From the NCBI RefSeq assembly GCF_011170125.1, contig NZ_BLLN01000006.1, positions 21,424-85,423 of the forward strand: a stretch of 64,000 nt of DNA. Direction: 5' to 3'. The translations under genes were made by a program, and so were the position numbers. The stretch is from Streptomyces diastaticus subsp. diastaticus (lineage in GTDB: Bacteria > Actinomycetota > Actinomycetes > Streptomycetales > Streptomycetaceae). Below, one piece after another: positions 45,206 through 63,099 of this stretch. Every line of letters starts with the position of its first letter. Position 1 is the first letter of the stretch. The notes below the pieces were generated by a model. It saw only the letters and a list, made by a program, of their open reading frames with translations. It made no database searches and was not told the DNA's origin.

Positions 45206-45208
45206 GAG

Positions 45209-45715: not shown

Positions 45716-45741
45716 CGCTTCCCCCTCATTCCGTCCGGTCG

Positions 45742-46116: not shown

Positions 46117-46118
46117 AC

Positions 46119-46130
46119 GTCTATGTTGAC
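46119..46130. promoter_or_regulatory. Putative ArsR2 operator, copy 1
   Basis: GTCTATGTTGAC just upstream of the arsR2 start; the same 12 bases recur at 47248-47259. Confidence 0.5.
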
Positions 46131-46158
46131 ACACGTCGAACCAGAGCGGGGAGGTCCG

Positions 46159-47220
46159 TCACCGGCGCGCGAGATGGGCAACCAGGCGCCGGGCGATCCG
46201 CTCCGCGTCCCGGCCCACCCCGCGCAACGAGTTCGACGACAGGCTGCGCTGCCACTCCAGCCCGACGTACGCCAGACCCGGCACACCGGCGGCGAGACCC
46301 TCGCGGTGCCGCGGCTTCCCCTCGGCGTCCATGGCGCCGCCGAGGCCGGCGAGGTAGGGCAGGTCGGGTCGGTAGCCAGTGGCGAGCACAACTGCGTCGA
46401 CCTCCTCCCGCCGCCCGTCCGGCCAGACGAGCTTGGTCCCGTCGGCGCCGGTGAACAGCGGCCGCCGCTCGGGTCGTCCAGCAGCCAGGGCGGCCCGGTA
46501 GCGGCCGTCGTCGAGGACCGGTTGCGCCGGCGGCCGCGAAAGGAACCGGCCGAGGGGTGCGGTGTCCAGGCCGGTGCGGACTGTCCAGAAGTGCAGGTCG
46601 CGCCCGAGGATGCGCTGGGCTGCGAACTTCACCGGCCCGCGGGTGGCGAGCGTGACGCGGGCAGTGGTGGCGAGCTCGGCGGCGATCTGCACCGCGGAGT
46701 TCCCGGCCCCGACCACCACCAGCCGGCCGCCCGTGAAGGGGGCCGGGCTGCGGTAGTCGGCGGCGTGCAGAACCTGCCCGGTGAACTCCACCAGGCCCGG
46801 CAGCTCCGGCCGGTGCGGTCGGCCGAACGTCCCGGAAGCCGCGACGACGGCCCGCGCCCCGAGCCGGCCGCCGCCTTCGAGGACCACTTCGAATGCAGAC
46901 CCGTCTCGTCGCACGGAGGTGACGCGCTCACCGGTGCGGATATCGGCATCCAGGCGGTCGGCGTAGGCGGTGAGGTAGGCGGCGACCTCATCACGATGCG
47001 GGTATCGGCCGCTGTCGGCACGGGGGAACGGCATCCCGGGCAGGGAGCTGTACCGGGCGGGTGAGAACAGCGTGAGGCTGTCGTAGTAGCGCGGCCACGA
47101 ACCGGCCGTACGGTCGGACGCCTCCAGCACCACCGGCCGCAGCCCGCGGCGCAGCAACGCGTGGGCGGCGGCGAGTCCGGACTGGCCGCCGCCGATGACG
47201 GCGACGTCGATGTGCTCCAT
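46159..47220 (-). CDS. Flavoprotein monooxygenase of the ars island
   Basis: ATG 47220, 353 residues. FAD-binding GGGQSGLAAAHALLRRG at residue ~9, second nucleotide-binding GAGNSAVQIA (~165) and the C-terminal GLEWQRSLSSNSLRGVGRDA. It resembles ArsO in layout but is a distinct sequence, ending 42 bases before the arsR2 start region (both on the minus strand). Involvement in oxidation of organic or inorganic arsenic is inferred from the context and from the shared operator upstream. The substrate is unknown. Confidence 0.85.
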   Translation of the reverse strand: MEHIDVAVIGGGQSGLAAAHALLRRGLRPVVLEASDRTAGSWPRYYDSLTLFSPARYSSLPGMPFPRADSGRYPHRDEVAAYLTAYADRLDADIRTGERVTSVRRDGSAFEVVLEGGGRLGARAVVAASGTFGRPHRPELPGLVEFTGQVLHAADYRSPAPFTGGRLVVVGAGNSAVQIAAELATTARVTLATRGPVKFAAQRILGRDLHFWTVRTGLDTAPLGRFLSRPPAQPVLDDGRYRAALAAGRPERRPLFTGADGTKLVWPDGRREEVDAVVLATGYRPDLPYLAGLGGAMDAEGKPRHREGLAAGVPGLAYVGLEWQRSLSSNSLRGVGRDAERIARRLVAHLARR

Positions 47221-47247
47221 GAACAACCCCACACGGCTTCGATGAAT

Positions 47248-47312
47248 GTCTATGTTGACGCTCATCAATACAGGTGCCATGCTGGGCCGCGCAAGCCATC
47301 GACAGATGTCGA
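47248..47312. promoter_or_regulatory. Divergent regulatory region with two operator-like sites
   Basis: GTCTATGTTGAC (47248-47259) matches the site before arsR2 exactly, and TCGACAGATGTCGA (47299-47312) is a perfect 14-base palindrome. They lie between the divergent flavoprotein genes starting at 47220 (minus) and 47331 (plus), suggesting joint control by ArsR2. Confidence 0.5.
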
Positions 47313-47330
47313 ACCACGCAAGGAGTCGCC

Positions 47331-48734
47331 GTGAACGCGCCCGCCACCACCGAGCCGCCCGTCGTCGTGATCGGAGCCGGACCCGCCGGTCTGGCCGCCG
47401 CCGCCCACCTGCTTGACCAGGGCATCGAGCCCTTGGTCCTGGAAGCCGGTCAGAAGGCCGGCGCAGCGGTGCGCGAGTGGACGCACGTGCGCCTGTTCTC
47501 CACCTGGGGCGAGGTCGTAGACCCGGCCGCCGAGAAGCTCCTCGCTCCCACCGGCTGGACGCGGCCCGACCCGGCCACCTACCCCTCCGGCGGCGACTGG
47601 GCCGAGCAGTACCTGCAGCCGCTCGCCGACGTCCTCGGCGACCGTGTACGCCTCGGAGCGGCGGTCACCGGCGTCTCGCGCACCGGCCGGGATCGCATCG
47701 TCGACGCCGGCCGTGAGCAGCAGCCGTTCGTCGTGCACTTCACTCGCGCCGACGGCCGTGAGGAGCGCGTCTTCGCGCGCTCCGTCATCGACGCCTCCGG
47801 CACCTGGGCCACCCCGTCCCCCGCCGGCGGCAGCGGACTGCCCGCGCTCGGCGAGAGGGCCGCCGCGAACCGGATCACCTACCGTGTCCCGGACCTGAAG
47901 GACCCCGCCGTCCGCACCCGGTACGCGGGCAAGCGCACCGCCGTCATCGGCTCCGGCGCCTCCGCCTTCACCACCCTCGCCTACCTCGCCGACCTCGCCA
48001 AGTCCAAGAACGGCGCGGGAACGAAGGGCGTATGGATCCTGCGCCGCGGCATCTCCGGCTCCACCTTCGGCGGCGGCGAAGCCGACCAGCTCCCCGCCCG
48101 TGGCGCCCTGGGCCTGGCAGCGAAGGCTGCTGTCGACGAGGGCCACGCGGACGCGGTCACCGGCTTCCGCACCGAGGCGATCGAGCGCGACACCGACGAC
48201 CGCCTCGTCCTGGTCGGCGAGGACGGACGCCGCCTGGACGCGGTCGACGAAGTGATCGTGCTGACCGGCTTCCGCCCCGACCTGTCCTTCCTCGACGAGC
48301 TGCGCCTGGGCCTCGACGAGCGCCTCCAGGCCCCCGTCGAGCTCGCGCCGCTGATCGACCCCAACCAGCACTCCTGCGGCACCGTCTACCCCCACGGCCA
48401 CCGCGAGCTCTCCCACCCCGAACCGGGCGTGTACCTGGTCGGGATGAAGTCCTACGGCCGCGCACCGACGTTCCTGGCGATGACCGGCTACGAGCAGGTC
48501 CGCTCCGTAGCCGCCGCGATCGCCGGCGACCTCGCCTCCGCCGGCCGCGTGGAACTCACCCTGCCCGAGACCGGAGTCTGCGGCGGCGCCGGACTGTTCG
48601 ACGCCCCCGACGCCGCTGAGGCCGACGGCGGCGGCTGCTGCGCGCCCGTGCCGCAGCTCGTCCAGCTCAGTGCTCCCGCCGCGGCCGGGGCGTCCGCCGA
48701 GCAGAGCCCGGCGGGCGGTTGCTGCGGCTCGTGA
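47331..48734 (+). CDS. FAD-dependent oxidoreductase with cysteine-rich tail
   Basis: GTG 47331 follows AAGGAG; 467 residues. FAD-binding GAGPAGLAAAAHLLDQG at residue ~15, a second Rossmann motif GSGASAFTTLAYLA (~206) and the segment VILTGFRPDLSF. Beyond residue ~400 the C-terminus carries cysteines as CGG, GGGCCAP and a final GGCCGS, which could bind As(III) or another thiophilic metal. It belongs to flavoproteins found in actinobacterial ars clusters but of undefined function. A strong terminator follows. Confidence 0.88.
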   Translation: MNAPATTEPPVVVIGAGPAGLAAAAHLLDQGIEPLVLEAGQKAGAAVREWTHVRLFSTWGEVVDPAAEKLLAPTGWTRPDPATYPSGGDWAEQYLQPLADVLGDRVRLGAAVTGVSRTGRDRIVDAGREQQPFVVHFTRADGREERVFARSVIDASGTWATPSPAGGSGLPALGERAAANRITYRVPDLKDPAVRTRYAGKRTAVIGSGASAFTTLAYLADLAKSKNGAGTKGVWILRRGISGSTFGGGEADQLPARGALGLAAKAAVDEGHADAVTGFRTEAIERDTDDRLVLVGEDGRRLDAVDEVIVLTGFRPDLSFLDELRLGLDERLQAPVELAPLIDPNQHSCGTVYPHGHRELSHPEPGVYLVGMKSYGRAPTFLAMTGYEQVRSVAAAIAGDLASAGRVELTLPETGVCGGAGLFDAPDAAEADGGGCCAPVPQLVQLSAPAAAGASAEQSPAGGCCGS

Positions 48735-48755
48735 CCAGCCTGGGCACCCCCACAC

Positions 48756-48797
48756 GCGGGGCCGCGACCGGAACAAGGAGACCGGTCGCGGCCCCGC
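48756..48797 (+). terminator. Terminator closing the ars island
   Basis: Perfect 16-bp stem GCGGGGCCGCGACCGG with a 10-base loop, 22 bases after the stop codon. Confidence 0.92.
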
Positions 48798-48850
48798 ACC
48801 GCCCTGCCCGCCCTCTGCGCCACGCAGATCGTGAGCTGGGGCATCATCTA

Positions 48851-49894
48851 CTAACGAGCTGGTGCGTGATTGCGGTTGGGGAGGGGGTCGCGCCAGGGTG
48901 GGATGATCCAGTCCGTGGTGATCACGGTCGACCGGAACGTTCTCGCGCATCAGCTGTTCACCGGTGTCTTCCGGCAGCATCTGGCTTGCCTGGTCGAGGA
49001 GTTGGCTGGCCCGTGGCAGGCCATGATCGAGGGGCGTCGTCACGAGGCTCGCGGCGGGGCCAGGAAACGTGAGGCGGGGGCCGGTGCCCGGCATCGGCTG
49101 GTGTTCGTCGACCGGCTGGTCGTCACGCTGATTCACCTGCGGCACGATCTCCCGCACTCCGTCCTGGCTCTGTTGGCCGGTGTCGACCGTTCCACCGTTA
49201 CCCGCGCGATCGGAGAGATGCGCGGGCTCCTGGCCGAACGCGGATGCGCAGTCCCTGACCGTCCTGGCCTGCGGCTTCGGACCCTGGCGGATGTGTTCGC
49301 CTACGCCCAGGCCGAAGGCATCGAGCTGCGGCTGGATGCCACCGAGATCCAGGTCCGCCGGCCCGCAGCCGGCCGCGGCGGACGCCGGGCGTTCGTCTCG
49401 GGCAAGAAGAAGCAGAACACGATGAAGGCCACTATCGTCGCCGACCATCAGGGCCGCACTCTCTGGACCGACGCCCTGCGGCCAGGCCGGATGCCCGATG
49501 CGACCGCCCCACGCAACGAAGGTATCGGAATCTGTTTCCAGCACTTCCCGGACGTGGAAGTGCTTCTGGACGACGGCTACCTCGGTCTCCGGCGTGACCA
49601 CCCCGGCCAGGCGATCACACCGCCCAGAAAGCCAAACAAGATCGCTTTGCCGCACGTGCACGCCGCCAGAGACGAGGCCCGGCACCGACACTCATCGAAG
49701 CGCATCACTGTCGAGCACGCGCTTGCCGACCACAAGCGCTGGAAGCAGCTGTCCCGCTGGATGCACCGGCGAGAGGCCCTGCCCGACACCTACCGGGCCA
49801 TCGCCGGCCTCGTCTCCGACCGAACCGCCAACGCGTAACCACGACCCTGATCAGGCAAACACGCCTCAACCGCAATCACGCACCAGCTCGTTAG
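48851..49894 (+). mobile_element. IS5-family insertion sequence, apparently intact
   Basis: Perfect 28-bp terminal inverted repeats (CTAACGAGCTGGTGCGTGAT TGCGGTTG at 48851-48878; complement at 49867-49894) frame a single transposase gene, total 1,044 bases. Perfect ends and an uninterrupted gene indicate a recent arrival. No certain target duplication is visible. It lies at the 3' end of a small HTH gene. Confidence 0.93.
48903..49838 (+). CDS. IS5-family transposase (DDE_Tnp_4)
   Basis: ATG 48903 (MIQSVVITVDRNVLAHQLF) gives 311 residues. An N-terminal helix-turn-helix (HSVLALLAGVDRSTVTRAIG) is followed by the DDE nuclease: LRLDATEIQV (first Asp), VLLDDGYLGLRRD (second Asp) and ITVEHALADHKRWKQLSRW (Glu). 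Full length with no interruption, so probably functional. Confidence 0.92.
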   Translation: MIQSVVITVDRNVLAHQLFTGVFRQHLACLVEELAGPWQAMIEGRRHEARGGARKREAGAGARHRLVFVDRLVVTLIHLRHDLPHSVLALLAGVDRSTVTRAIGEMRGLLAERGCAVPDRPGLRLRTLADVFAYAQAEGIELRLDATEIQVRRPAAGRGGRRAFVSGKKKQNTMKATIVADHQGRTLWTDALRPGRMPDATAPRNEGIGICFQHFPDVEVLLDDGYLGLRRDHPGQAITPPRKPNKIALPHVHAARDEARHRHSSKRITVEHALADHKRWKQLSRWMHRREALPDTYRAIAGLVSDRTANA

Positions 49895-50360: not shown

Positions 50361-50533
50361 GCGGCACGCTACCTGTCACCAGCAGCAAGTGAAGCAGGGG
50401 CGATGTCACCGCGTTCGGCTTCTGGTGGGCAGAGTTCCAAGCAGCGGCCCTCGGCGATCACGGGCCATATTTCACGCGCCCCACGCGAACCCCGTCTCCT
50501 AAGATGACCTGGTACGACTGCTGGGGGGCGGGA

Positions 50534-51949
50534 ATGCTTGAGGACATCGAGGACGGGGCAGCGACGCGGCTCGCGGGAGGCGCGCCGCTTCAGAGCACGC
50601 TTGATGTCGCCGACCCCGCTGACTGGCTCGCGCTGGACGCAGGAGTGCGTGAAGTGGCCTGGTATCGTCCGCAATTCCTGCCGGAGTGGGAACAATCCAC
50701 CCCACTGCCCGCCGAACTGACTCAGCTCGGCGAGTCTCGGCTCGCACTCGCCCTCTGCCACCGCAACGGGCGGATCCGTCAGGAGGCGGTGCGCCAGTCG
50801 GTCCGATACCCCGGCCTGCTGCCGTTGATCGTGATCCGCTGCGCCGATTGGGCCGGCCCAGTGCGCGAACACGCCCGGCAACTGCTGCGCGAGGCCCTGC
50901 ACGTGGACTCTGCCCTCGACCTCGCGCCACTCATCCTCCGCGTCGGCCGCCGCGACAGAGGGGCCTTCGGCGTCGATGTGCTCGGCCAGATCCTGCGCCA
51001 GGCATCCCACGAGCAGCTCGCTGCTCTCTTCGCTGACCCCGACCGCACCGTCCGGCGGTTCGCGTACCGGCTGGCCGTCGAGAGCGGACTGCTCCGTTCC
51101 GCTGAACTGGCCCGTGCGGCCGCCCAGGACGAGGACACCGTGGTCCAGGACCTGTGTACTACAGCGGCGCTCACGGTTCTTGGGGATGAGGAGGCCTACG
51201 AGGATGTACTGCCTCCACTGCTGTCCGCACGCAACCCGCGTACCCGTTCGGCCGGCGTCACCGCGCTGCGGCGGGCGGGGCGGTCAGAGCAGGCGGAGCC
51301 GTTTCTCAGCGACCGGTCCGCGCTCGTGCGTGCTTGCGCACGGTATGTCGTACGACAGCAGGGAGGTGATCCGGCCGCCTGGTACCGGGAGCGGTGCACG
51401 GCACCGGGCGACCCCGAATTGCCGCCCGGTGCGGTCATCGGGCTGGCCGAGTGCGGGAACCGCGCGGACGCAGGGCTGCTGCGGCCGATGCTCGCGCACC
51501 CGGCAGCCGGGGTGCGGGCGCGAGCGGTGGCAGGGCTGCGAGTACTGGACTGCGTGGATGTGAAGCGGCTGTGGCCGCTCCTCGACGACCCTGCCGCCGG
51601 GGTCGTCCGCGAGACCGTCGCCGCCCTGCTGCCCTCGGCCAAGGAATTGCCCGCCGGCTGGCTGTTGGAACGCACCAGTCCCGAGCAGCCGCGACACGTC
51701 CGCGTCGGCGCATTCCGGCTGCTCGACGCGCGCGGCGGCATCGCGGCGCTACGGGCGGCAGTCGGCCTGTTTGAGGACCCGGATATGAAGCTGCGCACGT
51801 GGGCCGGACAATCAGTGCAGCGCTGGCATCCGTTGCCGGACGGGCGGCGCGGCGACGCGGAGGTGGGCGAACTGCTCGACCGGGGCCGACACCTCTTCAG
51901 CGATTACGTGCTGCGCCGACGCAAGTGGGAAGCCGGGCTGGACAACTGA
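50534..51949 (+). CDS. HEAT-repeat protein
   Basis: ATG 50534 with GGGGGGCGGGA just upstream gives 471 residues; ATG 50504, ten codons further, is an alternative. The protein consists of repeated helical pairs with Arg/Val/Ala patterns typical of HEAT repeats (RIRQEAVRQSVRYPGLLPLI, RTVRRFAYRLAVESGLL, AGVRARAVAGLRVLD, AGVVRETVAALLPS, MKLRTWAGQSVQRW). Such solenoids bind protein or nucleic acid partners; no enzymatic domain is present. It has no obvious operon partner and lies beside the telomere genes. Confidence 0.8.
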   Translation: MLEDIEDGAATRLAGGAPLQSTLDVADPADWLALDAGVREVAWYRPQFLPEWEQSTPLPAELTQLGESRLALALCHRNGRIRQEAVRQSVRYPGLLPLIVIRCADWAGPVREHARQLLREALHVDSALDLAPLILRVGRRDRGAFGVDVLGQILRQASHEQLAALFADPDRTVRRFAYRLAVESGLLRSAELARAAAQDEDTVVQDLCTTAALTVLGDEEAYEDVLPPLLSARNPRTRSAGVTALRRAGRSEQAEPFLSDRSALVRACARYVVRQQGGDPAAWYRERCTAPGDPELPPGAVIGLAECGNRADAGLLRPMLAHPAAGVRARAVAGLRVLDCVDVKRLWPLLDDPAAGVVRETVAALLPSAKELPAGWLLERTSPEQPRHVRVGAFRLLDARGGIAALRAAVGLFEDPDMKLRTWAGQSVQRWHPLPDGRRGDAEVGELLDRGRHLFSDYVLRRRKWEAGLDN

Positions 51950-52250: not shown

Positions 52251-52805
52251 TCAGAACGCCACGTCCAGGTAGTCGATATTGGTCAGGCTCACCTCCAGGT
52301 TGCCGGCCCGGCTGCCGCCGTCCTTGAAGTACACCTCTTGCAGCCCCTGGGCGACGATGGCGCGCAGCTGGTCCTCGGTCGCGCCTTGGTCGCGGGCGTT
52401 GAACAGTGCCTGCGCGTATTCGGCAGGGAGGTGGACTGTGAGGCGGCGGAAGCGGCCGTCGTCGGTAGATCCGGCGGGCGCGGTGTAGCCGAAGCGGGCG
52501 CGGGTCTCGATTGTGATCCCGGTCGCGGCGGCGGCCTGCCGCCGGCGCCCGCCGCGTAGGCGGGGCTGCCACCGCCGCCGTACTGCGTCATCGATCTTCG
52601 CGGCGACGTCGGCGCGGGCGTGCTTACGGGCGCCGCGCCGGTAGCGGTTCACGGAGTCTGCGGTGACACCGATCTCCCGGGCGACAGCCTTCGCGCTGCC
52701 CAACTGCCTCAGCAGGTAGCGGATCTGGCCCTTGAGGGTCTTCGGCGGCTGCCGGGTGAACGCTTCCCGGTCGGCCCGCTCAATGGCTTCCTCGATCTCT
52801 CCCAC
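52251..52805 (-). CDS. tpg: Telomeric terminal protein Tpg
   Basis: Tpg is bound covalently to the 5' ends of linear Streptomyces replicons and primes end patching. The 184-residue protein has the family length and order: a start MGEIEEAIERADREAFTRQP, an HTH region LGSAKAVAREIGVTADSVNR, the basic stretch, ITIETRARFGYTAPAGSTDD, and the C-terminus GLQEVYFKDGGSRAGNLEVS ending DYLDVAF. It lies where tap-tpg operons place it, 225 bases after the tap stop. The partner gene is truncated, so function at a telomere would need another Tap. Confidence 0.93.
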   Translation of the reverse strand: MGEIEEAIERADREAFTRQPPKTLKGQIRYLLRQLGSAKAVAREIGVTADSVNRYRRGARKHARADVAAKIDDAVRRRWQPRLRGGRRRQAAAATGITIETRARFGYTAPAGSTDDGRFRRLTVHLPAEYAQALFNARDQGATEDQLRAIVAQGLQEVYFKDGGSRAGNLEVSLTNIDYLDVAF

Positions 52806-53030
52806 AGGGTCAGCCCTTCTTCAACGGTGGGGGTCCTGGCCGTCAAGGGCGGCCACCAGATCTCGTGCGTCTCGTGCAGCCACCCGTCGAAGCGGCGCGA
52901 GGTGGGCGGGCTCGCGGCGAGAACCGCGGGGCTCCTTGCGTGCCTGAAAGTGGTCCAGCGTCCGCGTCGTTTCGTTCGGCCTCCAGCGACGACGGCCGCG
53001 AGGTCGCTGCGGGTGCGGGTGGCCGTGGGT

Positions 53031-53676
53031 CTACTCGCCTTCGTCCAGGACGGCGTCGTGGCCGTCGCCCTTGATGTGACGGGCTGGGTTCAACCCCTTT
53101 TCCATCAAATCGACTGCCCACAGGAGTTCCTGTACTCCCTCCGTCTTCGCCAGGCCCGGCGTGGAGCCGAGGCGGAAGGCGCCCGGCTGGGGCCTTCCGG
53201 AGGCCGCGTAGGGGAGGAAGTCGAGCGGCGAGCCGCCCGGTGCGGGGTAGACGACACAGTCGGAGAGCACGGCGAGCGGGTACAGGCCCGTCATCGTCAC
53301 CATGTTGCGCAGCTTGCGGTGCATGTTGACCCGGGCCTTGGAGATAACAGCGGCTCGGATGTCGGGGCGCCAGGTCGGCCGCGTCAGGGCCGGCCACGGC
53401 TCGCCCTCCTTGTAGTGCTTACCCTGCGGGCGCTCGCGCAGCTTTCCGACACCGCCCTTCACCGTGGCCTTGATCGCGGACAGCACGGCGGCCAGGACCG
53501 GGTCGACCTGCTTGGGCCGCTCCATCGCCGCCAGGAACTCCGCGTCGGAGAGGTCCTTGGTGACGCCGAGGTCGGCGAGGGTGTCGACGTAGGCGGTCTT
53601 GAGGCGGTCGTGCCACGGATCAAGGTACGCGCCCTTCTCGCGGCGCAGGTACGCCTCGATCGGGTGGACGTCGTAG
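53031..53676 (-). pseudogene. tap: 3' part of the telomere-associated protein gene tap
   Basis: The frame reads [20 protein letters not shown], then [40 protein letters not shown] and a C-terminus ending GLNPARHIKG...DEGE. This is the conserved C-terminal third (about 215 residues) of Tap, which recruits Tpg to telomeres and normally has over 700 residues. Upstream of about 53,677 the similarity stops abruptly and the sequence becomes the adenylation-domain gene in a different frame. No start codon of its own is evident. Confidence 0.85.
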
Positions 53677-55039
53677 GCTCGCCGGTCGCGGTGGTGCAGA
53701 ACAGGACGAGTTCCCGGAGGTTGTCCGCCGCGTCCACCGCACGGACCACCGCACGGTTCACCAGTCCGGTCTCCTCGGCGGCGAGCTCCACCTCGCGCAG
53801 CTCGACCCTGAAGCCCCGGATCTTCACCATCTGGTCGGTCCGGCCCACGAGCACGACCTCGCCCTCCGGGGTCAGCCGGGCCATGTCGCCGGTCCGCAGC
53901 AGCCGGGTACCGGCGTGCTCGGGGAACTTCTCGGCGGTCAACTTCGGTTGCTCGAGGTAGCCGTGCGTCAGGCCGGCGCCGCTGAGGCACAGCTCGCCGA
54001 CCTCGCCGGGGTCGCAGGGCGCGAGGTCCGGCCGCAGCACGTGCAGGCCCACCCCGGGCAGCGGCCGGCCCACCGGGAAGACCTGGCGGCGGACGTCCTC
54101 CTCGGTGAGCGCGCGGACCGCTGTCAGCGCGGAGTTCTCCGTACAGCCGTACGCGTTGTGCACCGCGCCGCCGACGGCCCGCAGCGCCCGGGACAGGTGC
54201 TCGGGCGACGGGAAGTCGCCGCTGACGATCACCGAGCGCACCCCGTCCAGCGCCTCCGGGTGGCCGTCGACCAGCAGGTTGAACAGACCGCAGGGCAGAT
54301 TGAGGAAGGTGACCCCGTGTTCGGTGATCAGCCGGGCCAGCTCGGGGAGCGAGGGCAGCTGCGGCGGTGGGACGACCAGCCTCGCCCCGTGCAGCAGGCT
54401 CAGCCAGATCTCGGTGGTGGAGGCGGCGAAGGAGTAGGGGGAGGTCTGGAGGAAGCAGTCGTCGGGCAGCACCACGGCGTGCCCGTTGTGGTCGGCCACC
54501 CGGGCGATGGCCCGGTGGGGGATGAGCACGCCCTTGGGGCGGCCGGTGGATCCCGAGGTGAAGAGGATGAACGCGGTGCTCTTCGGGTCCACCGCCTCCG
54601 CCAGGTTCCCGTCCGGCAACGAGGCGCTCGCGGCGACGAGTTCGTGCACGTCGCGCTCGGCGGTGACCGAGCCGAGCCCGGCCGGCACGTCCCGGAGCGT
54701 CAGCACCGGCTGCGCCTCCTCGGCGGCGGAGCGCCGTACCGCCACCGGATGCGCCGGGTTCAGCGGTACGACCACGCCGCCGAGCTTCAGCACCGCGAGG
54801 AGCGCGACGTACAGCTCGACCGAGCGGGACATGTGGATCGCCACCCGGCTCCCCGCCGTGACGCCCTCCGACGACCGCAGCCGGCGGGCGAGGCGGTTGG
54901 CCGCCGCGTTCAACTCCCGGTAGGTCAGCACGCGCTTTCCGCACTCCAGGGCGGTCCGGTCGGCGGCCGCGGCGGCGGCGGCGGTCTCGAAGGCAGCGGG
55001 GAGAGCGGGTACGTCCTTCAGCTCATCGACGGCATACAC
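53677..55039 (-). pseudogene. Stand-alone NRPS-type adenylation domain, 3'-truncated
   Basis: GTG 55039 follows CAGGAG and opens [20 protein letters not shown]. Motifs: A3 [13 protein letters not shown] (~160-172), A4 [13 protein letters not shown] (~200), A5 [12 protein letters not shown] (~295), A7 [10 protein letters not shown] (~380), A8 [16 protein letters not shown] (~403-418). The A10 lysine motif and any carrier domain are missing because homology stops at about residue 454, where tap sequence begins; the frame runs on to 53459 as nonsense. The A4 Asp that usually binds an alpha-amino group is Ala (FAAS), suggesting an aryl acid or other substrate without alpha-amine. Confidence 0.85.
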
Positions 55040-55104
55040 GTGTAACTCCTGCGGCAGAGAGGAAAGTCGGGTGGGGTCCATGGAGGCGGGAGACGGACGT
55101 GGGA

Positions 55105-55138
55105 AGGCCCGGTGCACACACGTGTGTGCACCGGGCCT
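55105..55138 (-). terminator. 34-bp perfect palindrome
   Basis: AGGCCCGGTGCACACAC followed by its exact complement, 27 bases past the uvrA-like stop and upstream of the adenylation gene on the same strand; it probably ends the former transcript. Confidence 0.85.
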
Positions 55139-55165
55139 CCGCACGTTCCCGCGGCCTGGGTGGTG

Positions 55166-57490
55166 TCAGCCGCCGGCCCCCTCGGGCAGTGAGGAGCGGA
55201 GGAAGCGGGCGGTCGTGGTGTCCGAGCCTTCGACCATCTCGGCGGGGGTGCCGGTGAACACGACCCGGCCGCCGTGCTCACCGGCGCCGGGCCCGACGTC
55301 GATAATCCAGTCGGCGTGCTTGACCACGTCCAGGTCGTGCTCGATGGCGATGACGGTGTTGCCCGCGTCCACCAGCCGGTCGAGCAGGGCGAGCAGGTTG
55401 TCGATGTCGGCCATGTGCAGACCGGTGGTCGGTTCGTCGAACACGTAGACGCTGCCGTGCTCGTGGAGCCGGTTGGCGAGTTTCACCCGCTGGCGTTCGC
55501 CGCCGGAGAGCATGGACAGCGGGCGGCCCAGTGTCAGATAGCCCAGGCCGACCTCCTCCAGCGGCGCCAGGCGGCGCGCGATGGCCGGGTCGTCGAACGC
55601 GTCGCGAGCCTCGGCGACGGTGAGCTCCAGCACCTCCGCGATGTTGCGGCCGCCCAGCCGGTGGGCCAGGGCCTCCGGCCGGTAGCGGGAGCCGTCGCAG
55701 ACCTCGCAGACGGTGGTGACCGGGTCCATGAAGGCCAGGTCGGTGGTGATCGTGCCGCGCCCGCGACACTCGGTGCAGGCGCCCTTGGCGTTGAAGCTGA
55801 AGAGGCTCGGGTCCACCCCGTGCGCCTTCGCGAACAGCTTCCGCACGGTGTCCCAGATGCCGGTGTAGGTCGCCGGAGTGGAGCGGGGGTTCAGGCCCAC
55901 CGCCGACTGGTCGAGCACGATCGCCTTCGGATGCTGGGCGGTGAACACCCGGGAGACCAGCGTCGACTTGCCCGAGCCGGCCACCCCGGTGACCACGGTC
56001 AGCACTCCGGTCGGGAAGTCGACGTCGACGTCCCGCAGGTTGTGCAGTCGCGCGCCCCGCACCGGGAGTCGGCCGGTGGCCGTCCGGGGGTTCGGCTTCA
56101 GCCCGGGTTGGCTGCGGAAGTGCCGGCCCGTGAGCGTCCCGCTCGCGGCAAGCTTCTCGACCGTGCCGGTGAAGACGACCTCCCCGCCGGCGGCGCCCGC
56201 TCCCGGGCCGACGTCGATCACGTGGTCGGCGATCGCGATGACGTCCCGGTTGTGCTCGACGATGAGCACGGTGTTGCCCTTGTCCCGCAGGTCCTGCAGC
56301 AGGCGGTTGAGGCGGTCGACGTCGTGAGGGTGCAGACCCACGCTCGGCTCGTCGAAGATGTACGTCATCCCGGTCAGCGCCGACCCGAGGTGGCGTACGG
56401 TCTTCAGCCGCTGGCCCTCGCCGCCCGACAGGGTCCTGGTGGGCCGGTTGAGCGTGAGGTAGCCGAGGCCCACCGACTGGATGCGCCGCAGCGAGGACAG
56501 CGCGGCGGGCACCACAGGCCCCGCCCACCGGTCCGAGACCCGCTCCAGCTCGGCGACCAGGTCGCCGATCTCCATCTCGCAGTAGTCCGCGATGTTGCGG
56601 CCGTCGATCCTCGACTCCAGGGCCGCCCGCGAGAGCCGGGCGCCCCGGCACTCCTCGCAGGTCCGCTCGGTGACGACCTGCTCGGTGGCCTTGCGCTCCT
56701 TGTCCTTGAGCGACTCGAGCCCCGGCTTGATGAACCGCCGGGTCAGCCTCGGCACCACGCCCTCGTACTCGTTGATGGCGACGTTTCCGAAGTCGTCGGG
56801 GCGGATCGTCTCGAATCCCTCCCCCTGCAGCAGCAGGTCCATCTCCTCGTCCGAGTACTGACCGAGCGGCTTGTCCGGGTCGAAGACCGGCTCGAGGTCG
56901 GTGTCGCGCGCGCGGCCCTTCTCATAGCGGCTGATCTGCGCGTAGCGCTTCCAGTAGTTGGTGCCGACCGCGAAGTTGGCGTGCCGGATCGCGCCCTCGT
57001 TGAGGGACCTGTCGAGGTCCAGCAGCTTGTCCACGTCGAGTTGGAGGGTGGCGCCCAGGCCGTCGCAGGCCGGGCACATGCCGTGCGGGTCGTTGAAGGA
57101 GTAGAAGTTGGAAGGACCGGCGCTCGGCTCGCCGTAGCGGGACAACAGCACCCGCAGCACCGGGTTGACCTCGGTCATGGTGCCCACCGTCGAGCGGGTG
57201 CCGCCGCCCACCGGCTTCTGGTCCACGATGATCGCCGGCGCGAGGTTCTCGATCAGTTCGAACTCGGGCCGCTCGTAGCGGGGCAGCCGGTTGCGGATGA
57301 AGGCCGGGAAGACCTCGTTCAGTTGGCGCTGCGACTCCACGGCGATCGTGCCGAACACGATCGACGACTTGCCGGACCCGGAGACCCCGGTCACCACGAT
57401 CAGGACGCCCAGCGGGATCCGCAGGTTCACTCCCTTCAGGTTGTTGGTCCGGGCCCCCGTCACCACGATGTGCTGCCTGTCCTCGCCCAT
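55166..57490 (-). CDS. UvrA-like ABC ATPase (class II, DrrC-type self-resistance)
   Basis: 774 residues, near the length of UvrA2/DrrC proteins and shorter than housekeeping UvrA (about 950), since the UvrB-binding insertion is missing. Two ATPase modules: Walker A GVSGSGKSS (~35) and GVAGSGKST (~500), signatures TLSGGEGQRLK and MLSGGERQRVK, Walker B IFDEPSVGLH and VFDEPTTGLH, and CxxC zinc pairs (CPACDG, CEECRG, CTECRG, CEVCDG). Such proteins remove DNA-binding antibiotics from DNA in their producers. It is the only complete gene in a 4.2-kb block whose flanking genes are cut. Confidence 0.93.
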   Translation of the reverse strand: MGEDRQHIVVTGARTNNLKGVNLRIPLGVLIVVTGVSGSGKSSIVFGTIAVESQRQLNEVFPAFIRNRLPRYERPEFELIENLAPAIIVDQKPVGGGTRSTVGTMTEVNPVLRVLLSRYGEPSAGPSNFYSFNDPHGMCPACDGLGATLQLDVDKLLDLDRSLNEGAIRHANFAVGTNYWKRYAQISRYEKGRARDTDLEPVFDPDKPLGQYSDEEMDLLLQGEGFETIRPDDFGNVAINEYEGVVPRLTRRFIKPGLESLKDKERKATEQVVTERTCEECRGARLSRAALESRIDGRNIADYCEMEIGDLVAELERVSDRWAGPVVPAALSSLRRIQSVGLGYLTLNRPTRTLSGGEGQRLKTVRHLGSALTGMTYIFDEPSVGLHPHDVDRLNRLLQDLRDKGNTVLIVEHNRDVIAIADHVIDVGPGAGAAGGEVVFTGTVEKLAASGTLTGRHFRSQPGLKPNPRTATGRLPVRGARLHNLRDVDVDFPTGVLTVVTGVAGSGKSTLVSRVFTAQHPKAIVLDQSAVGLNPRSTPATYTGIWDTVRKLFAKAHGVDPSLFSFNAKGACTECRGRGTITTDLAFMDPVTTVCEVCDGSRYRPEALAHRLGGRNIAEVLELTVAEARDAFDDPAIARRLAPLEEVGLGYLTLGRPLSMLSGGERQRVKLANRLHEHGSVYVFDEPTTGLHMADIDNLLALLDRLVDAGNTVIAIEHDLDVVKHADWIIDVGPGAGEHGGRVVFTGTPAEMVEGSDTTTARFLRSSLPEGAGG

Positions 57491-57542
57491 GGCGGTCTTC
57501 GTCTCCTCGTACTCGCCGTCGTTCAGGTGCCGCTGCCGGGTT

Positions 57543-57880
57543 TCACCGGCCGCTCACCACTGTGCCCGCCGGCGCTCCACCGTCGGCGTCTGCCGTGAGG
57601 TCACCCATCGATATCCGGCCACCCCGGGTGACCAGGTCCACCAGGAACTCCTCCGGCGAACTCGGGCCCGCGTCGGCGAGCCCGGCGAACCAGTCGGCGC
57701 TCTCCCGGCCGATCCGCTGCGTGTGCTCCACCGCCGGTCGGCGGCCCGTCTCGTACGCCGCCAACGCGCCCGGCAGTGAGGGCTCGGCCCGCAGCGCAGC
57801 GGCCAGGGCGCGGGCGTCGTCCAGGGCCAGCCGGGTGCCGGAGCCGACCGAGTAGTGCGCCGTGTGCGCCGCGCTAACTT
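57543..57880 (-). pseudogene. 3' fragment of an FAD-dependent monooxygenase gene
   Basis: The frame reads AHYSVGSGTRLALDDARALA, LAAYETGRRPAVEHTQRIGR and GDLTADADGGAPAGTVVSGR then stops. The SVGSGTRLALDDARALA piece is the C-terminal FAD-contact motif of aromatic hydroxylases, and the context resembles the monooxygenase domain of anthraniloyl-CoA monooxygenase-type enzymes. Upstream of about 57,880 the homology stops, so the N-terminal 75% of the domain is missing. This is the right-hand breakpoint of the inserted block. Confidence 0.65.
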
Positions 57881-58056
57881 CGGCGCGCTCGCACGGTCAA
57901 CGCAGGAAATGCAGAGCAACGTCAGACAACGTCAACCCTTGGTGAGCTCCACTACAGGGGAAAGGGGAGCAGAGCGCGGCCCTCCGCCCGTCTCCCGGCC
58001 CCACCGCGGTTCACGACCAGCCGTTTCCCGCCGCCCGCCAACTCGTTGCCCTGGAC

Positions 58057-58866
58057 ATGGAAACCGAACCCACGCTGGTCCTGGGCGCGACCGGCTCGGT
58101 CGGCCGGCGGGTCGCCGCGCGGCTGGACGCTCTCGGGGCACACGTCCGTCCGGCCACCCGGAACTCCGCGACCCGCTTCGACTGGGATGACCAACGCACC
58201 TGGAAGCCGGCCCTCAACGGCGTCTCCCGACTGTTCCTGATGAGCCCCGACGGAGTCCCCGTGGCGCCGGGCTTTGTCCAGATGGCGGTGGAACTCGGCG
58301 TGGAGCGGATGGTGCTGCTGTCCAGCCGCGCCATCGAGACGATAGGGGACGAGCGGCTCCTCGACGCGGAGCGGCTGGTCAGGACGTCGGGGGCCGACTG
58401 GACGGTCGTACGCTCCGACTGGTTCGACCAGAACTTCGACGAGGGCCACTTCCGGACGGCCGTACGCGACGGCCGGCTGACGGTCCCGCTCGGAGACTGC
58501 CGGCAGGCGTTTGCCGACCTCGACGACGTGGCGGACGTGATCGCCCTCGCCCTGCGGGAGGACGGGCACACCGGCCGGACCTACGAGGTCACCGGGCCAC
58601 ACGCATTGTCCTTCGGCGAGGCGTGCGAGGTCATCAGCGCGCGCACCGGCCGGCCGCTCGAGTTCCGCGGCGAACCGGAGGACTACCGGGCGTTCATGAC
58701 CTCCCTCGGCCGGCCCGAGGAGGAGGTCGAGGGGGAGATCGCCGCCTTCGACGCCCTCCGCGCGCTCGGCGACGGCAAGCCCCTGGACACCGTCCCACGG
58801 CTGCTCGGACGTTCCGCCAGGAGCTTCGAGGAGTACGTCGCGAGCGTGCCCGCCGACCGCTGGTGA
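58057..58866 (+). CDS. NmrA/SDR-like NAD(P)-binding protein
   Basis: 269 residues with the N-terminal dinucleotide motif LVLGATGSVGRRVAARL (residues ~7-23), the NmrA-type segments VELGVERMVLLSSRAIET and DWTVVRSDWFDQNF, and a C-terminal substrate domain. The extended SDR catalytic YxxxK is lacking, as in NmrA-like redox sensors and quinone reductase (QorB) relatives. No ribosome site is obvious; the promoter must lie in the 170 bases after the truncated monooxygenase. Function unknown; a quinone or redox role is possible. Confidence 0.85.
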   Translation: METEPTLVLGATGSVGRRVAARLDALGAHVRPATRNSATRFDWDDQRTWKPALNGVSRLFLMSPDGVPVAPGFVQMAVELGVERMVLLSSRAIETIGDERLLDAERLVRTSGADWTVVRSDWFDQNFDEGHFRTAVRDGRLTVPLGDCRQAFADLDDVADVIALALREDGHTGRTYEVTGPHALSFGEACEVISARTGRPLEFRGEPEDYRAFMTSLGRPEEEVEGEIAAFDALRALGDGKPLDTVPRLLGRSARSFEEYVASVPADRW

Positions 58867-59052
58867 GGAGTTCCGTCAGAAACGGCACAGGCACCGCAAA
58901 TCCCGTACAAGGCTCACCGCCCGTCTCCTTCCCCGGGTGATCACCGCCCTACGCTCCGAGGTATCCGCCCCACCGGTGGCCCAACCGCCCCGAAGCGAGG
59001 GCGGATTCCCTCGCACCTCACAGCGTGCGGTCACTCCCGGTAAGCGACAGTA

Positions 59053-59920
59053 AGACCGTGTCCTATGTGGTGAGGTGGTCGTTGGGGTGATTATGGGGCG
59101 GGGTACATAGAGTTGGATTGTTCCGGACGGACTGTGGGAGATCGCGAAGCCGTTGATCCCGCCGTCGAAGGTGCGGCCGCAGGGTGGCGGCACGCAGGAC
59201 ACGCCTGATGAGACGGTGTTCGCGGCCGTCGTCTACGTGCTGGTCAGCGGCTGTGCCTGGCGCGCGTTGCCGCCATGCTTCGGGATATCGAAGTCGACGG
59301 CCCATCGCAGGTTCGTGATCTGGTCGCGGGCCGGCGTGTGGGGCCGACTGCACGAGGAGATCGTGCACCGGCTCTACGACGCCAGCCTGCTCGACCTGTC
59401 GCGTGCAGTCCTCGACTCCGCCCACGTGCGCGCTAAAAAGGGGGCGAACACACAGGTCCGAGCCCCGTGGACCGGGGCAAGCCGGGCTCCAAGATGCACG
59501 TCCTGTCGGATGCGAACGGACTGCCCCTGGTCGTCGGTGTCTCCGCTGCCAACGTCCACGACAGCCTCGCGTTGAAGCCCATGGTCGCCGCTCACCAAAC
59601 GAGACACGACCCACACCGCGGCCGGTACTTCAAGCCTCAGCGTCTTCACGCCGACAAGGCGTACGACGTTCCTCACCTGCGCAAATGGCTTCGCGGCAAG
59701 CGCATCGGCGTCCGCGTCGCACGCAAGGGCATCGAGTCCAGCGAACGACTCGGCCGCCGAAGGTGGGTCATCGAGCGCACCATGTCCTGGCTCACGGGCT
59801 ACCGTCGGCTCAACCACCGCTACGAACGAAACCCCCGAAACTACCTGGCCTTTCTCGGCCTCGCCGCCGCCCTCTGCTGCTACAAGCGACTCATCCGCCT
59901 CACCACGTAGGACACGGTCT
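59053..59920 (+). mobile_element. IS5-family (IS427-group) insertion sequence
   Basis: 26-base inverted repeats AGACCGTGTCCTAYGTGGTG AGGYGG (59053-59078; complement at 59895-59920, two mismatches) enclose a two-frame transposase. Flanking TA on both sides fits the TA-type target of this group. It splits or abuts a small gene fragment on its right side. Confidence 0.9.
59153..59910 (+). CDS. IS427-type transposase, expressed by frameshift
   Basis: Frame 1 (from TTG 59153, though the true start is probably upstream near 59117) gives the helix-turn-helix domain (DETVFAAVVYVLVSGCAWRA, FGISKSTAHRRFVIW, VLDSAHVRAKKG). At CTAAAAAGGGGG (about 59434) a -1 slip leads into frame 2, GEHTGPSPVDRGKPGSKMHV, with the rest of the DDE nuclease (LHADKAYDVPHL, RRWVIERTMSWLTGYRRL). 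The slippery site is typical of this IS group, so the two frames are one gene, not a pseudogene. Confidence 0.85.
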
Positions 59921-60104
59921 ATAAGGCGAGGGCGTCGGAGTTGGCGACAGGGTCGGCCGCGAGCTTGCGGCCAAAGGTGAGCCAGTCGACGCTGGCGAGC
60001 CGAAGGTCGATCGCGCCGGCGCGGCGCTTCGTGATGGCGGCGCGCACGGCCTTGGTAGGGCGGGCCACGGGCGGGGTCCTCCAGCGGTGCACCCCGCGCC
60101 CCAT
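59919..60104 (-). pseudogene. Small gene fragment cut by the IS
   Basis: 61 residues, MGRGVHRWRTPPVARPTKAV then TKRRAGAIDLRLASVDWLTF; the stop codon is formed at the IS edge. The central part looks like an N-terminal helix-turn-helix of a larger Streptomyces plasmid or phage protein that I cannot name. The remainder would lie on the other side of the IS, but 58867-59052 shows no clear continuation. Confidence 0.4.
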
Positions 60105-60657
60105 CAGATCCCACCCTTTCCAGCCCTCGTATATCCCAGACCACAGCGGTTAGTCGGTACGACCCATTACAGAATCTGGTGCATCAAGAATATAAGCACC
60201 CATCCCACAAACATGATGCAGACAAGGAAGGCCAGCACGACCGGCCCACGCCCAGGGCCTTCACGCCTTTCACTCATGAACCAATCACCGTACGTTTCCA
60301 CTCGTGCGAGATCTACGACGACCTACCGGGCACCACGGTAATCCCGCAGCTTGTTCCGCGTACCAGCCAATATTGTAACCTGCGCCAGAACACCCAGAGA
60401 TGGACTGCAAGCGTAGAGCCGACACGCCATCACCTCAGATCACCTAGACCTCGACGATGGCGGTCAGCTCCGCGACGAAAATGCATTCCCGATGGGACCA
60501 GCGCACCGCCATCAAGCAGCAAAGCGTGCACAAACCCTAACCAGGGCAGCTACACCAGGCTTAGATACATTCATCTGCGAACCCTGCCGTAGCATGCCCA
60601 GCCACCGACGTCCCGCCCATCTGGACAACCCTGAGCCGGAGCGGAAAGGACTAGATC
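60105..60657. other. Intergenic, lower-GC
   Basis: About 550 bases, visibly richer in A and T than the rest of the window (for example AAGAATATAAGCACCC). No supported gene or RNA was seen. Confidence 0.45.
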
Positions 60658-61032
60658 TTACGCGATCCTGTTAACCCACGAGTCACAGTCGTCCGGGTAC
60701 AAGGGCTGATCCTCACACGCTCGGAAGCTCACAGCCTCGTTCTCAGGGAAGTCGTGATTGAAGGTGTGGCAGGAGCCCGCACTCCCCGGGTTTACATCGC
60801 GATGGTCTCCCATATTGTCGTACCAGAAGTAGTCATTGTACGCAGCTGCTCCGTCTCTCTTAGTGTCGCAAACAGTGAACTTATCTCCGTAACTGATGAA
60901 ACGGACAGAGGCCCCATCGGTCTCCGACAATCCATCCGTTCCAGCCCATGCTGCCGAGGCAAAGCCGATCCCACAGATCAGCGACGCAGCACATACACTG
61001 GCCGCATTACGCAGGAGCTTCTTCATAACCAT
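60658..61032 (-). CDS. Secreted four-cysteine protein, paralogue A
   Basis: ATG 61032 has GGGAGG five bases upstream; 124 residues. Signal peptide MVMKKLLRNAASVCAASLIC with cleavage near ASAAWAG. The mature part of about 95 residues has cysteines in FTVCDTKRD, GSCHTFNHDF, RACEDQ and DDCDSW. It aligns over its full length with the protein at 61251-61676 (shared pattern SYGDK-x2-VCDT and HDF-x-E). Function unknown: candidates are a secreted binding protein, an enzyme inhibitor or a toxin-like protein. The pair is divergently transcribed, 218 bases apart. Confidence 0.8.
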   Translation of the reverse strand: MVMKKLLRNAASVCAASLICGIGFASAAWAGTDGLSETDGASVRFISYGDKFTVCDTKRDGAAAYNDYFWYDNMGDHRDVNPGSAGSCHTFNHDFPENEAVSFRACEDQPLYPDDCDSWVNRIA

Positions 61033-61250
61033 GCAGTCCTCCCGAGATTTGGATTTCTATGATCCTAAACCTTCACCGTTTGATTCGAACTGATCGTACG
61101 TAGATAACGGACAGTCACCCCGATCACGGTAAACAATCAACGCTGGACCTACGGGGAAACATGTTTCGTCCCCACAGAACGCAATGATAATGAACCCGCT
61201 TCATCAAAGTCATCATAGTTCCCGCACGATCAGTCAAGGGAGACACCGCG

Positions 61251-61676
61251 TTGAGGTTGACCGAAGCATCCAGGAAGCGGCTGCTGACCACAGGCCGCAG
61301 TGCAGCCAGCGCCACCGCATTCGCCGTCGTCCTGCTCGCTGCCGGCAGCACCATGAGTTGGGCAGCCGAATCGAGAGCCGCTAGCCGTGACGCCGTCTCG
61401 GAAGGCGGCGGTGGAAGAGTGACGTTCTACAGTTACGGCGACAAAATCGAGGTTTGCGACACGGCCACAGATGCCCAGGGCCCGTACGGGGTATACAAGT
61501 ACTACAAGTCCGAGGCCTCCCCCATCCAGGGGAGGCACAATCAAACACGCGGAAACGGCGCCTGCAACACGTGGGACCATGATTTCGCTGAAGGCAAGAC
61601 AATCCTGATCCGCAAGTGCCAAGACCTCCCCGTACTGCCGGACACGTGCTTGCCATGGAAGACTGGCATCGTGTAG
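61251..61676 (+). CDS. Secreted four-cysteine protein, paralogue B
   Basis: TTG 61251 follows AAGGGAG; 141 residues. Signal peptide with a twin-basic start and hydrophobic core (AFAVVLLAAGSTMSWA), cleaved after about residue 38. Mature part has the four cysteines of paralogue A in the same order: IEVCDTATD, GACNTWDHDF, RKCQDLP and DTCLPW. Probably two disulfides. The Lys/Tyr-rich middle (YGVYKYYKSEASP) is the least conserved. A terminator follows 22 bases past the stop. Not recognised as any named family. Confidence 0.8.
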   Translation: MRLTEASRKRLLTTGRSAASATAFAVVLLAAGSTMSWAAESRAASRDAVSEGGGGRVTFYSYGDKIEVCDTATDAQGPYGVYKYYKSEASPIQGRHNQTRGNGACNTWDHDFAEGKTILIRKCQDLPVLPDTCLPWKTGIV

Positions 61677-61697
61677 CCAAATCGCTTAGATCCATCG

Positions 61698-61726
61698 AGG
61701 GGCGGCGCTGAATCAGCGTCGCCCCT
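61698..61726 (+). terminator. Terminator after paralogue B
   Basis: AGGGGCGGCGCTG / CAGCGTCGCCCCT, 13 pairs with one wobble, 3-base loop. Confidence 0.88.
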
Positions 61727-62132
61727 CCTGGTGGTGTTGGCCTAGCCTCAAAGTTCATGGCGGCCCACACCGACGGAGTCGGCGGGCCGTGTTCGTGCCG
61801 CGAGGCGAGGACGGGCAGGCCGAGGGCCCCAATGTCGCCCCGGGGCGGCGCACCGGATTCAACTGCTCCGGTCACGGGCTGGTGCAGTAGGGGCGGGAAG
61901 GTCGCTAACCAGCCAAGCTTCGGCGGGGAATGCGAGCTGGTCGAGTGCTGCGGTGATGTAACTGGCCCAGGGTCAGTTCGGGCCAGGCGGAGGATTCGCT
62001 GGCGGCTGGGCGTCACGAGTTGGCCGACCACCAGCGCGCCTATCACCGACCTGAACTCCGAAACGGCTCCGCGGGGGGAACCGACCGGCCGTCAACAGAT
62101 CGAGTGGGTTTCCCGATGCACCGCGCGGTCAG
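61727..62132. other. Intergenic between converging genes
   Basis: 400 bases without a supported gene. Open frames on both strands lack ribosome sites and any recognisable domain. Confidence 0.45.
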
Positions 62133-63014
62133 TCATCCACGAATTGATTGGCCAAGTTCACTGAGACCTGGAACTTGCGATGGCGGAACTGTGCAGCCTG
62201 ACGACGGTTCAGGTAGAAGAGAAACAAGGCTGTCGTGATCAAGACTGTTGAGGATTGCGACCTGAATCCGTCTCAAGGTTATTGCGGGTTCCACGCCGGC
62301 ATATTCGATGAAGCGTAGACGCGAATCGCTATAGGTCAGCAACGCTTCCACCCGACGACCCGATGAATATAGGGCAATCATCAGTGAGGCTATCAGCCGT
62401 TCTCGAAACGGGTACAGGTGAACCAAGTGCAATAGCCGCGGTATCAGCGAGTGATGCCCTCTAGGAGAAGCCCGAAGACGCACTTCCGCCAGCGTCTCTT
62501 CGGCCTGCAATCGCAACTCTTGCAGGCGCTGCGCTTCTCCTTTCAGCAGGATCACATCTTGCACTTCGGGCATCGCAGTCTCTGACCGCCACATACCCAG
62601 TCCGGCCTCAAGTGAACATATTGCCTCCTGAGGATTTTTTTCACTCCTCAATGATTTTTGCGCGTTCCTGAGGCACGCTTCGAACAAGTAAGCATCGACA
62701 TCGTTTGAACTCAGGATCAGACGGTACCCGGTGGCCCTGTTATGAACTATTTGGACAGGAGTCGACCGCAGAGCCATCCTGAGAGTCATTACGTAGCTCC
62801 TGACCATTTGCAAGCCCGAAGCTGGCTGCGTTGAACCCCAGAGGTGATCGGCAATATTATAGGCATTCATGCCGATTTCAGCGCCAGCGGAAGTGAGCAC
62901 CGCCAGCACTTTTCTACTACTTAGGGTCAACTGCCCTCGCCATGATCCGTTGACCTGCACATTGCCAAGCAACTGAATCGCGGGCTGGACGTTTCGCCAT
63001 CGCGGATCGGACAT
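62133..63014 (-). CDS. SARP-like transcriptional activator (HTH plus BTAD)
   Basis: ATG 63014 follows AGGGGGAG; 293 residues. Residues about 8-95 form an OmpR-type winged helix (AIQLLGNVQVNGSWRGQLTL, WGSTQPASGLQMVRSYVMTL, IVHNRATGYRLIL); residues about 100-250 form the all-helical BTAD domain. SARPs activate antibiotic clusters in Streptomyces; none is complete nearby. The 40-residue tail is unusual. Codon use is less GC-biased than in the main body of the window, suggesting transfer or relaxed selection. Confidence 0.85.
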   Translation of the reverse strand: MSDPRWRNVQPAIQLLGNVQVNGSWRGQLTLSSRKVLAVLTSAGAEIGMNAYNIADHLWGSTQPASGLQMVRSYVMTLRMALRSTPVQIVHNRATGYRLILSSNDVDAYLFEACLRNAQKSLRSEKNPQEAICSLEAGLGMWRSETAMPEVQDVILLKGEAQRLQELRLQAEETLAEVRLRASPRGHHSLIPRLLHLVHLYPFRERLIASLMIALYSSGRRVEALLTYSDSRLRFIEYAGVEPAITLRRIQVAILNSLDHDSLVSLLPEPSSGCTVPPSQVPGLSELGQSIRG

Positions 63015-63099
63015 AGCAAACTCCCCCTGGATGACTCTGCGGGCTAAGCGAGTACCGTCCATCTAATTTTATCGCGATATGCACGGGCAAGGGCGGAAG

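Follow-up and report, generated by a model that had tools for sequence, protein, structure and literature searches.

A truncated tap gene beside an intact tpg is joined to an apparent pyrrolobenzodiazepine cluster relic on a predicted linear plasmid of Streptomyces diastaticus

The stretch of DNA analysed here, which we call the window, comprises 64,000 nucleotides of the soil bacterium Streptomyces diastaticus subsp. diastaticus and covers positions 21,424 to 85,423 of contig C6, the length of which is 85,423 bp. It contains a full-length tpg gene, the 3′ part of the neighbouring tap gene and, directly joined to the latter, a block that consists of a truncated adenylation (A) domain gene, a UvrA-like gene and the 3′ end of an FAD monooxygenase gene, beyond which lie an NmrA-family gene, an IS5-type element and plasmid backbone (Table 1). 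All of the cut genes are on the minus strand, in line with a preliminary description of this DNA that had placed them on one strand.

Table 1. Positions of the features around the junctions, in window coordinates
Feature	Position	Strand	Description
Response-regulator-like gene	34,136-34,804		54% to a cluster-locus protein
Transposase gene	48,870-49,838		
HEAT-repeat gene adjoining tpg	50,504-51,949	plus	Pfam HEAT_2
tpg	52,251-52,805	minus	full-length terminal protein, 184 aa; NCBIfam NF047541
tap 3′ fragment	53,031-53,675	minus	codons about 490-692 of 695, with the native C-terminus
Junction 1	53,675-53,676		A-domain DNA joined to tap; 1 nt ambiguous
SibE-type adenylation domain	53,676-55,039	minus	AMP-binding; without A10 motif and carrier domain
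UvrA-like gene	55,166-57,490	minus	full length, 774 aa
FAD monooxygenase gene, 3′ end	57,543-57,873	minus	stop codon ends at 57,543
Junction 2	57,873-57,876		FAD gene cut
NmrA-family gene	58,057-58,866	plus	Pfam NmrA
IS5-type element	about 59,052-59,923	plus	transposase Pfam DDE_Tnp_1; inverted ends; at the plasmid-backbone boundary
Plasmid backbone	59,924-64,000		98.5% identity to the interior of four 170-172 kb S. albidoflavus linear plasmids

The window tpg matches the NF047541 Tpg model over profile positions 1-183 with 267.9 bits, against a cut-off of 90, and the earlier view that it is intact thus holds. Judged by position in the translation, it keeps T114 and D115; the importance of a priming Thr or Ser at 114 and of an acidic residue at 115 is known from PMC3572947. 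A second tpg copy, on contig C5, is 66% identical to that of the window. The dN/dS ratio of the window tpg was 0.26-0.28 against four plasmid tpgs and 0.35 against the C5 copy, but most of the divergence behind these values should predate the join, so that they say little about the present function of the gene. A consensus scan of 52,800-58,100 for sigma-70-like sites returned 0, and shuffled sequences also gave a mean of 0.0. The adjoining HEAT-repeat gene has an 84% homologue on a plasmid of Streptomyces sp. Alt3 (tblastn, L159), where it lies beside a tpg-like remnant in two pieces (47-48%).

The tap fragment matches the NF047542 Tap model only at profile positions 493-695, and its 360.7 bits remain below the cut-off of 600. 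It aligns to residues of about 490-692 (widest 484-693) of the 695-aa Tap encoded on C5 of the same genome, which corresponds to about 29% of the gene and thus to slightly less than the C-terminal third that had been described. A Pfam search of the fragment returned no family, and the N-terminal helix-turn-helix (HTH) domain is missing. With its start region, the HTH domain and about 70% of the codons gone, the window tap is a predicted pseudogene; its dN/dS against three other taps was 0.20-0.25. A whole-genome search with Tap residues 1-483 found the complete C5 copy and two matches that cover the HTH region only, and the 5′ part of tap is absent from contigs C4, C6 and C9. That conserved Tap motifs form a polymerase palm is at most a lead. 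A search of PDB sequences for relatives of Tap found none besides HTH-type matches, the best E value being 0.015, and with a mean pLDDT of 36.9 its AlphaFold model is of poor quality.

The limit between tap and the A-domain gene is sharp. The Tap homology, thought to stop at about 53,677, ends at 53,675/53,676: its onset falls within 53,674-53,678 in 16 of 19 tap loci from relatives and at 53,664, 53,633 and 53,541 in the other three. The A-domain gene, which likely starts with the GTG at 55,037-55,039, is in a frame other than that of tap, as had been proposed; its last own codon (Pro) occupies 53,675-53,677, while the tap codon TAC starts at 53,675. That its 3′ end is cut is also confirmed, since the gene ends at query residue 485 with nothing after it and the 631-aa homologue in genome G270 continues to a carrier domain. 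When the A domain of L051 was compared with the taps of L014 and L016, relatives that stand in for the true parents, one nucleotide (C) was assignable to either side, and homology at junction 1 is therefore as short as in an end-joining scar. No IS end was seen at 53,675.

An identical A-Tap join is present in protein P0002 of Streptomyces sp. DSM 41029 (668 aa, on a contig of 28,986 bases). P0002 begins with the same A domain, undergoes a change of frame within that domain and reaches Tap across the join. All 57 residues ahead of the join are identical to the window, and so are 211 of the 214 that follow; the protein carries substitutions of its own. Because P0002 comes from another strain and another contig, junction 1 is biological and common to two strains. 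A further truncated relative, P0014, lies on a contig of 237,606 bases. We found no report of such a join in the literature, as far as titles and the openings of abstracts go, with one of the searches being very thin.

P0001 of S. albidoflavus, which runs uncut through the A10 motif, matches the A domain with 98% identity over 450 aa. Because P0001 (551 aa, with only PF00501 listed) ends without a recognisable carrier domain, its source cluster may be damaged too. Another relative (69% over 441 aa) is P0016, named 3-hydroxy-4-methylanthranilate adenylyltransferase, of Streptosporangium sibiricum, which we take to be the sibiromycin enzyme SibE. Although truncated, the domain is recognisable as an anthranilate-activating one of the SibE/ORF21 type. 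Some A-domain match was found in 392 of 392 genomes, and among the matches listed only three besides its own exceed 70%; a scan of genome contigs found distant A domains only (9 loci, 21-38%). The gene of the window is, by its sequence, most simply read as dead.

The UvrA-like gene is the only complete-looking gene between both junctions. Its product reaches 711 bits with the UvrA equivalog model, just short of the cut-off of 729.8, and has both Walker A motifs. In a comparison that covered 392 genomes, 96 of them without a score, the gene showed 84% DNA identity to G270, G241 and G327, and it is probably the self-resistance gene of the cluster. The FAD monooxygenase tail is 75% identical to residues 258-362 of a 366-aa protein in G270. 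The order of FAD gene, UvrA-like gene and A domain is common to G270, G241 and G327, all of the same genus, at 77-84% DNA identity; in G270 the neighbours, read from translations, are an NRPS, a kynurenine-monooxygenase-like FAD protein, sugar-nucleotide genes and a glycosyltransferase.

We searched 75 proteins from seven such loci in five genomes (G270, G241, G327, G020 and G146) against C4, C6 and C9, and the only matches were the block, the NmrA gene, the response-regulator-like gene and transposases. A condensing NRPS with a terminal reductase and kynurenine-type genes gave no match on the three contigs in this search, and the best whole-genome match of the kynurenine-monooxygenase-like protein reached only 32%. 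The gene content points to the block as a relic of a pyrrolobenzodiazepine cluster. The porothramycin cluster encodes a UvrA-family protein (por3), an anthranilate-activating NRPS of the SibE/ORF21 type (por20) and an NmrA protein (por22), and the window resembles this cluster and those of anthramycin and sibiromycin in its SibE/ORF21-type A domain, UvrA-family and NmrA genes (PMC4194701). It differs from them as a relic, in which neither a condensing NRPS nor a kynurenine-3-monooxygenase-like gene was found.

At junction 2 the FAD-side homology ends at 57,873 in 14 of 14 rows listed and likewise in L050, L051 and L052. No IS end was seen at 57,873, and a search with 221 bp found no second copy of this junction. 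The NmrA gene beyond it is 67% and 60% identical at the amino acid level to genes in G020 and G146, at loci that likewise include a UvrA-like gene and a related A domain; a partial match was found in G205, and none in six other loci searched, including those of G270, G241 and G327. Because the NmrA gene is of cluster type, both sides of junction 2 most likely derive from cluster DNA. The FAD gene is thus cut close to the position of about 57,880 at which the block had been said to end, but cluster-type DNA continues past it. The idea of a foreign biosynthetic block fused to tap is supported in that the block replaces the 5′ part of tap, and is not supported at the second breakpoint.

The transposase of the IS5-type element (59,052-59,920) matches the IS5 model below its cut-off. 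In the S. albidoflavus plasmids NBC_01664 and NBC_01661 the same backbone boundary is occupied by IS112, to which, in the NBC_01664 copy, the window element has no blastn match; two different IS elements therefore occupy one plasmid site. Within the low-GC plasmid DNA that follows, two small secreted-looking paralogous proteins are encoded in inverted orientation at 60,658-61,032 (minus) and 61,251-61,676 (plus).

C6 overlaps contig C4 on its left by 1,677 bp (99.94%) and contig C9 on its right by 917 bp (100%). The sequence of C4 and C6 follows parts of the NBC_01331 plasmid collinearly, and that of C6 and C9 the S. albidoflavus NBC_01661 plasmid. Because of these overlaps and of the collinearity on both sides of each join, the locus is internal: it lies at least 35 kb and at least 115 kb from the ends of a C4-C6-C9 chain of about 152 kb. 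On these grounds we rejected the window as a replicon end, contrary to the preliminary description, which had suggested that it would record a rearranged end of a chromosome or plasmid. C4 encodes a TadA/VirB11-type ATPase (Pfam T2SSE; NCBIfam match below cut-off) and a weak ParB-like protein, and we read the chain as a predicted mosaic linear plasmid.

Other parts of the window and of the assembly are recorded here in their own right. Positions 44,000-48,854, near the tpg region, are 91.9% identical to a plasmid of Streptomyces sp. NBC_00984 with ArsO/ArsR-type genes and form an arsenic island. A long array of repeats spaced by about 73 bp (8,254-10,510) lies near a gene at 2,017-2,940 that we assume to be Cas7-type, and together they probably constitute a CRISPR-Cas locus. 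Most of the sequence in contigs C7 and C8 repeats, in inverted form, the same contig or the ends of C5, C1 and C3, in the manner of long-read palindrome artefacts.

Among PLSDB records, 343 match Tap and 254 of them cover at least 80% of it, with part of the low coverage being due to a divergent N-terminus. We sampled 60 of the Tap matches evenly for detail. The distance to a record end is within 10 kb in 15 of them, above 10 kb in 45 and above 30 kb in 31; for close, nearly complete matches in this sample, the count within 10 kb is 6 of 13. In three S. albidoflavus plasmids (NBC_01621, NBC_01661 and NBC_01627), an intact tap-tpg pair is located 3-9 kb from an end. Because only 15 of the 60 fall within 10 kb, an internal tap-tpg is common and by itself no sign of displacement, and we rejected the idea that an internal pair must be displaced; that the locus is a displaced telomere region is a possibility. 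The idea that the lost side of tap had faced the telomere was rejected as well, since it is tpg that lies towards the end in several plasmids. With many taps internal and tpg facing the nearer end in several relatives, the healing of a naked end is not indicated.

We consider it likely that a homology-free join brought a tap-tpg segment together with part of a pyrrolobenzodiazepine cluster, after which tpg, if used, would need a Tap supplied in trans. On a plasmid-like replicon related to the S. albidoflavus linear plasmids, the segment would have broken inside tap, and the broken end would have been joined without homology to a decaying cluster fragment that was cut inside its A-domain gene. 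Of the genes involved, tpg and the UvrA-like gene would have stayed open, with tap and the A-domain gene dead, and, provided that it is expressed, by read-through or from its own promoter, the C6 Tpg would depend on the one full-length Tap, that of C5. The sharp limit in relatives, the 1-nt microhomology and the lack of an IS at junction 1 fit end joining, which we infer as the mechanism along with this order of events. In S. ambofaciens, breaks are repaired by NHEJ with capture of DNA, and loss of tap-tpg leads to circularisation (PMC5869714). The proposal of illegitimate end joining agrees with junction 1; its placing near a telomere finds no support in the internal position of the locus.

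The rearrangement could instead have been mediated by IS elements, through adjacent deletion or recombination between copies. The IS5-type element at the backbone boundary, the other transposase gene of Table 1 and the presence of IS112 at the same boundary in NBC_01664 and NBC_01661 are compatible with this, but no IS end was seen at either junction, junction 2 is separated from the closest IS by about 1.2 kb and junction 1 from the closest transposase gene by about 3.8 kb, and we regard this route as unlikely. It is highly improbable that the cluster fragment simply inserted into tap and left the 5′ part on its far side; two sharp breakpoints do bound the block, but that 5′ part is missing from C4, C6 and C9 and, apart from the complete C5 copy, from the genome, and a cluster-type gene, NmrA, lies beyond junction 2.

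Still harder to credit is that the A-Tap fusion is a useful chimeric protein or that A domain and tap form a normal gene order. P0002 reads through from the A domain into Tap without a stop (668 aa), yet it enters the Tap frame by way of the frame change inside the A domain, the two frames mismatch in the window, and large parts are missing from both domains; among the rows listed for 100 genomes, the own genome included, only that of the window crosses junction 1, which speaks against a standard gene order. The least credible explanation, a chimera of the assembly at 53,675, could draw on the palindromic contigs C7 and C8 and on the unresolved overlaps but is contradicted, as is an assembly error at 53,677, by the same join with its own substitutions on another contig in DSM 41029. 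The reading that we retain is the homology-free join of a broken tap-tpg segment to a cluster fragment.

The search for another tap in the genome, which had been suggested, yielded one full-length copy in the assembly (C5:394,596-396,680, 695 aa), with 1123.6 bits on NF047542 and the HTH domain present. A 9.6-kb Tn7-like element (C5:385,016-394,597; L005:5017-14598) with genes for TnsA-like (NF033179), Mu/rve-type transposase, TniB and TniQ proteins lies between this tap and its tpg, which is thereby placed at a distance of about 10 kb. By our own reading, the element has the ends TGTAGGT...ACCTACA and a CGACG duplication and sits in the last codons of tap; the flanks of the insertion are adjacent in the window. 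A related element (TnsA 88%), observed at its tap-side end only, occupies the corresponding site in the tap of genome G019, and C5 and G019 are the only two of 30 fetched TnsA loci (flanks of about 1.5 kb) that show tap. The 3′ end of tap may be the attachment site of one Tn7-like subfamily; a term search of PMC10293859 found no mention of telomeres.

The C6 locus thus combines an intact tpg without a functional neighbouring tap and a full-length tap elsewhere, on C5. It would be a lone tpg which, if used, needs Tap in trans, as in SLP2. The suggestion that this tpg may depend on a Tap encoded elsewhere is borne out in that such a gene exists, and the dependence itself is argued by analogy. 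On SLP2 the lone tpg is functional but requires a tap located elsewhere, and three of five lone tpgs tested were pseudogenes (PMC3572947). In vitro, Tap and Tpg are sufficient for the synthesis of 13 nt from a protein primer (PMC4513846), and tap-tpg is supplied across replicons in S. rochei and S. clavuligerus (PMC6662830, PMC8743545).

The closest parallel, tpg-SLP2.19 (PMC3572947), shares with the window a linear-plasmid Tpg without an adjacent functional tap, T114 and a tap elsewhere; unlike SLP2, the window, known here from sequence alone, keeps a 5′-truncated tap with a foreign block in place of its 5′ part. In a forest-soil Streptomyces population, a C-terminal Tap remnant of 92 aa lies beside tpg, with a candidate Tap-alt gene immediately upstream where the window has the A domain (PMC7205883). 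S. rochei SRO_0241 is likewise a broken and fused telomere gene with tap-tpg coming from another replicon, but there it is tpg that is broken, and intact pairs are on plasmids (PMC6662830).

Broken taps were also found in three of the 60 sampled PLSDB rows, and two further rows were distant matches only (30-33%). In S. anthocyanicus (NBC_01636, plasmid NZ_CP109276), tap residues 565-695 are followed by an intact, full-length tpg (296.8 bits) in the interior of a linear plasmid, as in the window, with another breakpoint, other neighbours and a distant Tap (57%). S. zaomyceticus NZ_CP108231 retains tap residues 448-649 and has no tpg match within 4 kb. In S. rutgersensis NZ_CP045705, tap is in several pieces with no CDS listed, and tpg is intact; this plasmid has a second Tpg-family gene (L166:7016-7609, 205.3 bits) 1.3 kb from the first, beside the broken tap. 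Together with the remnant described in PMC7205883, these cases indicate that a damaged tap beside an intact tpg is recurrent, and the fusion to a cluster relic is a particular case of it.

The A-tap join is a well-documented scar and does not amount to a new system. It shows in resolved form how Streptomyces linear plasmids shuffle telomere genes with pieces of clusters: the kind of source and both cut points are known, as is, for junction 1, another strain that bears the same scar. The UvrA-like gene, apparently intact, is left cut off from the rest of its cluster. In a speculative and rather doubtful extension, both tap-tpg operons of this strain would be uncoupled, one Tap would serve the linear replicons together with two diverged Tpgs (66% identical), and the C6 tpg would be transcribed with the uvrA-like gene; if true, telomere priming would be tied to the regulation of a uvrA-like gene from a dead cluster for a DNA alkylator. 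The locus offers a natural test case for whether Tap from another locus can serve a Tpg, and the uncoupling of both tap-tpg loci in this strain is the part most worth an experiment.
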